NCBI GenBank assembly: GCA_028289425.1
Contig: JANQPL010000003.1
Span: 124,001-188,000, forward strand
From: Alphaproteobacteria bacterium
GTDB taxonomy: Bacteria > Pseudomonadota > Alphaproteobacteria > JANQMY01
Length of the DNA stretch: 64,000 nt
Direction: 5' to 3'
The notes under the pieces were generated by a model. The model made no database searches, was not told where the DNA came from, and saw only the letters and a list, made by a program, of their open reading frames with translations. The position numbers were made by a program, and so were the translations under genes. Each line of letters starts with the position of its first letter. Position 1 is the stretch's first letter. This document shows, piece after piece, positions 61,254-63,954 of this stretch.

Positions 61254-61547
61254 GTGTCAAAATCGGAAGAACGTCAGAAATTGCTCGGCAAGCTCTCGAA
61301 GGGCTTGGTATACGCCACACCGCTTCTTGTGGCTGGCGCCTTTGCAACGGACGCTTTTGCGGAAAGCAAAACGCTGGTCGTCGCCGAAGCCGAAGCCGCT
61401 GCAGAAGCTTCTGCGGAGGGCGAAGCTGAAGGTGAAGCCAAAGCTGAAGGTGAAGCCAAAGCTGAAGGCGAGGCTGAAGGTGAAGCGGCCGCCGAGGCAG
61501 AGGCTGAAGGCGAGGCCGAGGGCGAAGCGAAGGCCGAAGCTGAATAA
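61254..61547 (+). CDS. Leader-bearing Glu/Ala/Gly-repeat peptide, possible TTLL substrate
   Basis: 97-residue low-complexity protein. Residues 1-36 look like a signal peptide or RiPP-type leader: basic SKSEERQKLLGKLSKG, hydrophobic LVYATPLLVAGAFA and an AFA cleavage-like site. From about 44 to the end it is almost only Glu, Ala and Gly with three Lys, in units such as AEGEAKAEGEAKAEGEAEGE, ending with a C-terminal Glu. GTG 61254 is the start, after AAAAGGG. It converges on the TTLL/PqqD/HprK fusion gene. Acidic Glu/Gly tails are what tubulin-modifying TTLL enzymes act on, so it is a natural candidate substrate; this is inference. Confidence 0.75.
   Translation: MSKSEERQKLLGKLSKGLVYATPLLVAGAFATDAFAESKTLVVAEAEAAAEASAEGEAEGEAKAEGEAKAEGEAEGEAAAEAEAEGEAEGEAKAEAE
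61425..61460 (+). repeat. Perfect 18-base tandem duplication in the acidic-peptide gene
   Basis: GCTGAAGGTGAAGCCAAA occurs twice head to tail (61425-61442 and 61443-61460), encoding AEGEAK twice, and degenerate copies continue on both sides. The repeat keeps frame (six codons), so copy number could change without frameshift. Confidence 0.85.
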
Positions 61548-61568
61548 TTCAGCGCACAGAACAAATTT

Positions 61569-61601
61569 GGGGCGGCATCTGGCGTGGGCCGGTGCCGCCC
61601 C
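61569..61601 (+). terminator. Hairpin between the convergent acidic-peptide and TTLL genes
   Basis: GGGGCGGCA (61569-61577) and TGCCGCCCC (61593-61601) form a perfect 9-bp stem with a 15-base loop, 22 bases after the peptide stop. It is followed by TTATTGATT, a poor U-tract; on the other strand CCAAATTTGTT follows. A moderate terminator for the peptide gene, perhaps in both directions. Confidence 0.65.
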
Positions 61602-61620
61602 TTATTGATTCCGCGAAAGT

Positions 61621-63954
61621 CTATAGCAATTCGGCCGCCGCGATGGGATCGGAATACTGCACCCGGTGCACCGGAAGCCCGTTTAGCCATGCGACAAGCT
61701 GCGCCGGATCCCCTGACGTGCCAATCTTTTGCGCCCACAAATCAGGCAGCAGGTCAGCAACACTGATCTCTGTTGCCGTCCCGTCCATGTCTTCACTAGA
61801 TTCTGCGATAAGGATGCGGTCGACCGCTAACGATTGACCGTCGCAAGCACCTCGAGCCGCCAAATGGCGCACCGGATATCCCAGCCGGGCTTCGTGCAAC
61901 GTGTCCGAAAGTCCCAAGGAGCTCCTGCAATCTGCATCCGCGGCAAACGTGTCCGGCACCCAAACCGGAATAGGGAGAGGCCACAAGCCTGCCGCCGCGC
62001 GATCGAGCACAACCGCTCCTGCGATTTGCTGCCCGCCGCAGCGTTGCGCCAAAGCAGCAATCAAGGCCCCGCCACCACGGCCGATAATGAGATAGTTCGC
62101 CTGGTCGCAGGCGACAAATCCCGCGCGCAGCACAATGCGATCGGGACGATGTTCCGACTCGTCCATTAGGAGTTCATCCGCAAGCAGTGGAACAATACGG
62201 CTAAGACGCACATCGCTGGCGATTATTCGAGTATCGCGCAGAACGGTGTAGCCTTGAGCCCCTTTCACGATGGAAATCTTTTGCACGTCCTCCGCCAAGG
62301 AATTAGGTGTAGCATCTGCCAGAAGTTCCAACCGACGGCCTATCGGGTCATGCGTGTACTGAATTAGATAGGCGGCGGCCTGGGTTTGCACATGCGTCTC
62401 ACCGACCCATTGGTCCCCATTGTCCTCCGATTTCCGAGATTTCTGAGGCTGCTGGTCGGACAGCCGCACCAATCCCTTTTGCCCCCAATCGGCGAGCGTA
62501 TTCCATACATCGCGCGCGATTTGGTGTTTAGGAACCGGTGCCTGAGCCGCCAATTGATCGATGATCTGGCTGGGCTTCAAGCCTTCGGCGAGCTGAAGCC
62601 AAATGAACGTGGCGGTTTCATTCGGCACAAAGAACTGGCGGACCGTCCGCGCATAAAGCGCCAGCGCGTCGCCGGAAACGAACTCCTCCACCTCATTGGG
62701 CACGAGCTCGATCTCCGGCATGGGCGAGCAGCCTACGTGTTCGGCCAACACCAAATCACTGTAGCGGGGCACCGGAAACGATGTGAGATACCGGGACGGG
62801 TCTTCCCCAGGGAACACGCATCGATAATCGCCAATACGTGACTGTTCCCAATCCCACTCGGCCTCGATCCGCTCGTCGAAGGTCAACGCCGACCAATCGG
62901 GCCTTTCTTCGTTTGCACCGATCATGGACACCAAGTCGACAACCAACTGCCGTTTGATGCGCGCTTCATCAATGCCGCCATCCTCCGGTCCGGAACAGAC
63001 ATCCAAAGACGGGCTCAAGTTACACTCAAGGATCCATGGTTTCAGGTCCGCGTCCACCATGCAGTCCAAGCCGAACAATTCGTAACACCCGTCGCTATCG
63101 ACGCCGGTCGTCTCGATTCGTTGCCGCATGCGTTCGCGGGCCGACATCATGGTCAGTACAATGAGGTCTTCGAGATCCTGAAAGATGCGTTTGTCGTCAT
63201 GCCCTTGATCGCGCAGCCATTGCCGGTACTTGGAAAACGGGATGAAAACCACCGACGCCGGCGCATCTTCGTTTTCTTCGTTCACGTCCGGATTTGTCAG
63301 ATGCACGAACAGGTTTTTGAGGCTGGTCGGGTCGGTCGAATAGGGTTCGGAGGCGAGTTTCGCGAAACCTTCCTTGTACCAATAAACCCGCAAGGGGTCG
63401 ACGGACTGGATGACCACATAGCACCGCAGGACATATTTGTGTCCATTGTAAAGGTGCGGCCTGTGCAGATACTCCTGCACCATCCAATCTTCCCCTTTGG
63501 GCGCCAAGGCCGCATCCTCAAGAACTTGAATGCCCCGCCCCCGTGACAGGCCTTTCGGCTTTTGAATCCAGAGCTTGTTCGGATTCTTGTCCGCCGCTTC
63601 CTGCAGGTCAAAATAGTCCTCGGGCATCGAGTAAACGCGTGGGAAGAAATCGAAACGTTCGGCGAGCTTATGACCGTCGAGCCTTTTACGCGCCTTCAAC
63701 AGCGACTGATACAACAGGCTTTTGACCGTAAGCCCATTATTGCCTGGAATGTGATTGACCGTTTTTCCCGGTTCCAGCGCCTTGAACACCCGCGTCTCGG
63801 GCATACCCGTGAACCAATAGGCATCCCAATCGTCGGCCGTTCCCAGTTCCCACTGCGCCGAATCCAAGGCCGCTTCGAATGCGGCATCCTGGCCTTCGGA
63901 CCATTTTCCGCCAAACCAATATTTTCGGCGGCGCTTGTTGGATGTTTTGTCCAT
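61621..63954 (-). CDS. TTLL-like ATP-grasp ligase / PqqD-like / HprK-like fusion protein
   Basis: 777-residue protein with three domains. About 55-350 is a tubulin-tyrosine-ligase-like ATP-grasp ligase: IQKPKGLSRGRGIQVLED (nucleotide site), MVQEYLHRPHLYNGHKYVLR, LRVYWYKEGFAKLASEPYS, the TTL signature LFVHLTNPDVNEENED, and ELFGLDCMVDADLKPWILEC followed by NLSPSL with the metal-binding Glu310 and Asn312. About 425-497 is a PqqD-like winged helix (ATFIWLQLAEGLKPSQIIDQ). About 560-777 resembles HprK kinase, but its P-loop place reads IIGRGGGALIAAL with no Lys, so it is likely non-catalytic. TTLLs add amino acids to glutamate-rich protein tails; PqqD and HprK-like domains occur in peptide-modification clusters. 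ATG 63954 is preferred to 63984, weakly. Confidence 0.85.
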   Translation of the reverse strand: MDKTSNKRRRKYWFGGKWSEGQDAAFEAALDSAQWELGTADDWDAYWFTGMPETRVFKALEPGKTVNHIPGNNGLTVKSLLYQSLLKARKRLDGHKLAERFDFFPRVYSMPEDYFDLQEAADKNPNKLWIQKPKGLSRGRGIQVLEDAALAPKGEDWMVQEYLHRPHLYNGHKYVLRCYVVIQSVDPLRVYWYKEGFAKLASEPYSTDPTSLKNLFVHLTNPDVNEENEDAPASVVFIPFSKYRQWLRDQGHDDKRIFQDLEDLIVLTMMSARERMRQRIETTGVDSDGCYELFGLDCMVDADLKPWILECNLSPSLDVCSGPEDGGIDEARIKRQLVVDLVSMIGANEERPDWSALTFDERIEAEWDWEQSRIGDYRCVFPGEDPSRYLTSFPVPRYSDLVLAEHVGCSPMPEIELVPNEVEEFVSGDALALYARTVRQFFVPNETATFIWLQLAEGLKPSQIIDQLAAQAPVPKHQIARDVWNTLADWGQKGLVRLSDQQPQKSRKSEDNGDQWVGETHVQTQAAAYLIQYTHDPIGRRLELLADATPNSLAEDVQKISIVKGAQGYTVLRDTRIIASDVRLSRIVPLLADELLMDESEHRPDRIVLRAGFVACDQANYLIIGRGGGALIAALAQRCGGQQIAGAVVLDRAAAGLWPLPIPVWVPDTFAADADCRSSLGLSDTLHEARLGYPVRHLAARGACDGQSLAVDRILIAESSEDMDGTATEISVADLLPDLWAQKIGTSGDPAQLVAWLNGLPVHRVQYSDPIAAAELL

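Follow-up and report, generated by a model that had tools for sequence, protein, structure and literature searches.

The window analysed here is a stretch of 64,000 nucleotides of an alphaproteobacterial genome. Near its end lie two convergent genes on opposite strands, 73 bases apart, one for a small acidic peptide and the other, with its start at 63954 and its stop at 61621, for a multidomain protein containing a TTL domain. The features of the locus, and the evidence for each, are as follows.

61254..61547, plus strand: candidate precursor (substrate) peptide gene, 97 aa, GTG start (open reading frame, leader-profile match within its own genome, orthologue beside the TTLL fusion of G001, a genome of the same genus)
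61254..61361, plus strand: residues 1-36, a leader that is also a putative Sec signal peptide, with a charged helix (R..LL.KLS+G), a hydrophobic core and AFA before E (aligned with 39 other leaders)
61383..61544, plus strand: proposed acceptor region, residues 44-97, an alternating repeat of (A/G)E with 21 Glu and no EE pair (sequence and shuffle test)
61621..63954, minus strand: candidate modifying enzyme of 777 aa, a TTL-PqqD-(HprK/PEPCK-like) fusion (Pfam, PDB sequence search, AlphaFold model, Foldseek)
62980..63768, minus strand: TTL catalytic (ATP-grasp) domain, residues 63-325 (PF03133, E 2.5e-60; TTLL6 structures, TM 0.83; ATP/Mg residues)
62467..62640, minus strand: PqqD/RRE-like domain, residues 439-496 (PF05402, E 7.7e-10; PDB matches TbiB1 and TfuB1)
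61624..62403, minus strand: C-terminal PEPCK/HprK-like domain without Walker A (predicted model and Foldseek)

The peptide reads MSKSEERQKLLGKLSKGLVYATPLLVAGAFATDAFAESKTLVV and then AEAEAAAEASAEGEAEGEAKAEGEAKAEGEAEGEAAAEAEAEGEAEGEAKAEAE, the latter a tail of 54 residues that holds 21 Glu and has Glu as its last residue. Within residues 1-36, a charged amphipathic part (RQKLLGKLSKG) is followed by a hydrophobic part that ends in AFA before E. In the tail, residues 44-97 (AEAEAAAEASAEGEAEGEAKAEGE...AKAEAE), Glu alternates with Ala or Gly so strictly that Glu-Glu pairs are absent; a mean of 7.8 would be expected, and zero was never reached in 5000 shuffles. The initial annotation had described a leader-like N-terminus and about 50 residues of Glu/Ala/Gly repeat next to a TTLL fusion, and this description is confirmed. 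A chance low-complexity reading frame is ruled out by conservation and by the shuffle test. Because the same leader is found next to TTLL fusions in two classes of proteobacteria, 61254-61547 is the coding frame and the antisense frame 61274-61738 is ruled out as one.

The source genome carries a single copy of the fusion and a single copy of the precursor, and the window peptide is its sole strong match to the leader profile (E 5.5e-13). In G001, the fusion is 60% identical to that of the window and adjoins a precursor whose leader is 89% identical. A few kb past the fusion in the window's own genome (C14), beyond the end of the window, genes at 66515-67279 and 67297-69399 on the window's scale appear by eye to encode secreted peptidase-like and caspase-like proteins.

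Recurrence of the gene pair and its neighbours

A locus scan with one genome per species, made for relatives of four aligned fusions, gave 80 loci, or 81 with the window's own; a single-sequence scan of genome contigs with the window enzyme alone gave no match. The 80 loci span Marinobacter, Halomonas and its relatives, Ectothiorhodospiraceae, Robiginitomaculum, Marinicaulis and Rhodobacteraceae. Leader-bearing frames were found at 77 of the 81 loci, in Alpha- and Gammaproteobacteria, and lie no more than 1 kb from the fusion in 75, on the same or the opposite strand and on its 5' or 3' side. For three of the four loci without a nearby leader (L037, L066 and L089), the profile finds a leader-bearing frame in another part of the genome, that of L066 being the weakest match (E 7e-7) and known from the profile match alone. 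At L063 the fusion is present and no leader peptide was detected in the genome.

Presence and absence of the two genes also coincide within families. Among 111 Halomonadaceae genomes, the leader occurs in 17 of 17 with a full-length fusion and in none of 93 without it (Fisher 4e-19), and a genome of this family in which the fusion is truncated to a 204-residue remnant (G759:C12:523086-523697) has no leader. Among 121 Marinobacteraceae genomes, the corresponding counts are 18 of 18 and 0 of 103; in one genome of this family (G961:C10:506740-509140) the fusion is split into two frames and the precursors are kept. Within the phylum (about 396 genomes), leader matches that are strong (E below 1e-10) are limited to the three genomes with the fusion, the fusion and leader scans having used two samples near-identical in size that were not matched genome by genome. 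The best few of the weak leader matches in other phylum genomes (E above 1e-4), each read in a single frame, gave no leader-plus-repeat peptide. Since the leader profile was derived from TTLL-linked loci only, a divergent leader family without a TTLL would escape these scans. Plasmid searches with the window enzyme and with a Marinobacter precursor gave no match, and weaker TTL-domain matches within the class were mostly short and partial. Taken together, these results establish the pairing of fusion and precursor nearly as firmly as sequence can. The two genes, paired in the initial annotation by proximity and chemistry, are indeed neighbours across genomes, and in the genomes scanned leader-bearing acidic peptides are not widespread without a TTLL gene.

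Several features of the precursors suggest that they leave the cytoplasm. The leader probably doubles as an export signal, since an AxA motif is present in 104 of 111 leaders and a lipobox is clear in two cases, L090 (6663-6977, minus strand; LLVAGC) and L100 (8379-8840, minus strand; LLLAAC). These two precursors are probable lipoproteins bearing the acidic repeat. A Sec signal is uncommon in RiPP precursors, although bufferins are an established case (PMC12452194).

The alternating pattern of the window tail is a family trait. In 70 peptide tails, composed of 39% Glu, 25% Gly, 24% Ala, 4.6% Lys, 1.7% Ser and 0.8% Thr with no Cys, there are 27 EE pairs where shuffling predicts 429 +/- 11.5. 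Some tails deviate: those of Spiribacter (L097, 7257-7538, minus strand) and of a related locus (L094, 7196-7561, minus strand) have (TPEA)n instead of GEAE with wider Glu spacing, and the L038 precursor is a short peptide with a deviating tail. At 41 loci there is a second precursor that joins the leader to an E/A/G/K-rich stretch and a SoxA/TsdA-like cytochrome c (PF21342 in the representatives tested), as at L051 (11501-12172, plus strand), L092 (13756-14460, minus strand) and L034 (7061-7957, minus strand). These leader-repeat-cytochrome c fusions seem to be another substrate for the ligase.

Neighbouring genes were grouped into clusters of which the representatives were profiled. In 43 gammaproteobacterial loci, a DinB-family protein is encoded near the fusion (for example L015, 303-866, minus strand) and is possibly a second tailoring enzyme or a thiol-linked partner. 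Other recurrent neighbours are rhodanese (25 loci), an ECF sigma factor (24), cytochrome c (12, mostly in Robiginitomaculum) and DoxX, the last seen as one profiled cluster (10 loci) and another that looks like DoxX (11 loci). Part of this recurrence is plain synteny among close relatives, and in the window's own genome none of the recurrent clusters was found to flank the pair. The neighbours are a hint, short of proof, of redox or sulfur stress in the envelope. Precursors also occur several kb from the fusion and adjoining DoxX, at L080 (15120-15812, plus strand), L084 (17336-17638, plus strand) and L098 (13273-13593, plus strand); an ECF sigma factor gene is nearby at L080 and L084 as well, and these three loci present a bufferin-like gene set. 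The initial annotation had envisaged a two-gene RiPP-like or tail-modification system. That the genes form one system is strongly supported by neighbourhood and co-occurrence; the restriction to two genes does not extend to other lineages, where the cytochrome-fused second substrate, the DinB-like protein, DoxX and the ECF sigma factor are added.

Domains and active site of the fusion protein

The TTL domain of the fusion belongs to the TTL/TTLL family, scoring 204.6 bits on PF03133 where the curated cut-off is 20.1. By PDB sequence search, the nearest solved structures are those of TTLL6 (wild-type chain, E 3e-55), TTLL7 (E 6e-46) and TTLL11, and the alignment to TTLL6 extends past the TTL domain (GDYRCVFPGEDPSRY versus GGFRLIYPGLNLEKY). 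The AlphaFold model of the fusion has a pLDDT of 91.4 and matches TTLL6 structures in Foldseek with a TM of 0.83 on target length. In sequence and in fold, scores for the TTLL-type chain 5vlq and for the TTLs are far below those for the glutamylases TTLL6, TTLL11 and TTLL7. The ATP/Mg residues that were checked (K, K, R, D, E and N) are invariant in 80-81 homologues.

Three further positions were compared between the bacterial homologues and TTLL6. The Cys and His of TTLL6 at residues 179 and 362 are replaced by Ser or Ala and by Leu, respectively. At the position of Gln180, the homologues have Arg (54) or Lys (26; n=80) and never Gln. In the engineered TTLL6 chains 6vzq-6vzs, the same three positions differ from the wild type, with Cys-Gln changed to Ala-Arg and His to Ile. 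Q180 has been reported as the primary determinant of TTLL6 elongase selectivity (PMC12366701). With this elongase Gln replaced by an initiase-like Arg or Lys, the sequences suggest that the bacterial TTL fusions are initiases that would start chains on Glu side chains.

The PqqD-like domain, which the initial annotation had put forward as the means of leader recognition, is real by its Pfam score and resembles the leader-binding B1 proteins of lasso peptides, with TbiB1 and TfuB1 as its matches in the PDB sequence search. Its joining to a TTL domain need not imply leader binding. The C-terminal third of the fusion has no credible Pfam or NCBIfam match. Its model (pLDDT 90.8) resembles PEPCK (E 4e-5) and HprK (3tqf, E 4e-3) in Foldseek, and the Walker A motif, GxxxxGK[ST], is absent from 52 homologues. 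An active HprK-type kinase is disfavoured by this absence. Lacking Walker A, the domain is, on its predicted model, probably a non-catalytic scaffold and a degenerate kinase domain.

Proposed mechanism and its alternatives

Since one gene is hardly ever seen without the other, the fusion very probably acts on the neighbouring peptide and would add an amino acid to it. The reading that we hold to be probable, with moderate confidence, is a leader-guided RiPP-like system in which the PqqD domain binds the leader, the TTL domain glutamylates side chains of the repeat, and the product is exported. The PqqD-like (RRE) domain would bind the precursor by its conserved N-terminal helix. In the cytoplasm, the TTL domain would then spend ATP to activate the carboxyl groups of Glu residues within the (A/G)E repeat and attach to these side chains an amino acid, glutamate being the likeliest, with donor and acceptor site both proposed by homology. 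Branches would be started in the manner of eukaryotic initiases such as TTLL5, which is recruited through a separate docking domain and glutamylates the Glu-Gly repeats of RPGR (PMC13052805). The N-terminus could then serve as a Sec signal peptide, yielding an exported, hyper-acidic, branched peptide with a presumed function in the envelope. In many relatives, the exported product would be a cytochrome c bearing such a repeat.

Considerably less probable, but with some weight, is that the same enzyme and substrate and the same leader recognition serve to add a residue other than Glu, such as glycine or cysteine, to the Glu side chains. Donors differ within the TTL family, and the glycylases TTLL3/8 are likewise initiases on internal Glu (PMC12340829). 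A thiol-bearing product would suit the sulfur and redox neighbours (rhodanese, DoxX and the SoxA/TsdA-like cytochrome). Against this, the closest solved relatives are glutamylases by both sequence and fold, and glutamate is kept as the donor in the favoured scheme.

The site of addition is a separate matter. The initial annotation had allowed action either at Glu side chains or at the C-terminus, and it had pointed to the terminal glutamate, which is true of the window peptide but not conserved: the last residue in the 70 tails is Gly in 36, Tyr in 8, Glu in only 7, Ser in 6 and Ala in 4, with others in the rest. The C-terminal Glu is disfavoured as the acceptor by this count. Extension of the peptide C-terminus, by a tyrosine-ligase or TTLL11-like main-chain ligation, would fit the terminal Glu of the window peptide, and TTLL11 and TTLL6 can both extend main chains (PMC12366701). 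It is nonetheless unlikely, given the variable last residue, the 41 substrates in which a cytochrome domain stands behind the repeat, and the replacement of the elongase Gln in every homologue. Because the repeat is internal in the cytochrome fusions and the C-terminus is variable elsewhere, side-chain modification fits better, with residues inside the repeat as the likelier acceptors.

That the peptide is not a target of the fusion at all, the two genes merely sharing an envelope-stress regulon and the acidic tail being an unmodified polyanion or linker, is a shade more improbable still. The ECF sigma factor and DoxX genes that recur near precursors are in keeping with it, and acidic repeats could bind cations by themselves; it is opposed by the one-to-one co-occurrence across gain and loss, the common leader in precursor families with differing cargo, and the retention of the catalytic residues. 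Least probable of all is a graspetide-like crosslinking of Glu side chains to Lys, Ser or Thr of the same peptide, for which ATP-grasp RiPP enzymes making lactam and lactone linkages offer a precedent (PMC8939145), since such nucleophiles are few or absent in the tails and the enzyme is of the TTL type, which goes unmentioned in that graspetide survey.

To return to side-chain glutamylation, the system has the marks of a RiPP pathway: an encoded precursor with a conserved leader and a variable tail, and an RRE in the form of the PqqD domain, which may bind that leader. Chances seem about equal for and against a more general claim, that these loci define a RiPP-like class in which an RRE-fused bacterial TTLL places branched glutamates on exported peptides and c-type cytochromes, possibly for redox, sulfur or metal handling. 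If true, "tubulin-code" chemistry would be at work in a bacterial secreted-peptide pathway and in the envelope, a new type of secreted polyanion would be added, and there would be a first hint of such modification on c-type cytochromes. It would also provide a simple bacterial model for TTLL chemistry and open to testing how bacterial and eukaryotic TTLLs are linked in evolution; by exchange of leaders, the RRE-fused ligase could then be redirected to glutamylate proteins of choice.

Relation to known systems

No description of a bacterial TTL-PqqD system was found in the literature searched, which lay outside subscription journals, and bacterial TTLs may have been noticed earlier. The closest known systems are the eukaryotic TTLL glutamylases, TTLL6 by structure and TTLL5 by substrate type and likely activity. 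Common to them and to the fusion are the TTL fold, the ATP/Mg residues, a flexible Glu-rich acceptor and a separate docking module. The fusion differs in being bacterial, in having a PqqD/RRE-like domain as its putative docking module rather than a microtubule-binding or CID domain, and in its proposed substrate, a small, probably exported peptide or a cytochrome instead of tubulin.

Among RiPPs, the MNIO-modified bufferins and oxazolins resemble the present system in their N-terminal signal peptide, which is putative here, in repeated simple motifs, in a partner domain of the RRE type, in nearby genes for DoxX and ECF sigma factors, and in some long or domain-fused precursors (PMC12452194). 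Here, the modifying enzyme identified beside the precursor, where neighbours were seen through profiled cluster representatives, is a TTL ligase with the RRE fused to it, and the Cys motifs of a bufferin core are missing from the 70 peptide tails. Graspetides (omega-ester/amide RiPPs) likewise combine an ATP-grasp enzyme with a leader-bearing precursor, but the present enzyme is of the TTL type and the core lacks conserved Lys, Ser or Thr partners. The PqqD-like domain is shared with lasso peptide B1 proteins; it is fused to TTL here, and no lasso cyclase or B2 protease is found among the profiled recurrent neighbours. Finally, RimK and SidJ are also bacterial enzymes that ligate glutamate to proteins, but RimK is an ATP-grasp enzyme of another kind, with ribosomal protein S6 as its target (PMC4431377), and SidJ is a pseudokinase that modifies effectors in host cells (PMC6858067, PMC8548325).
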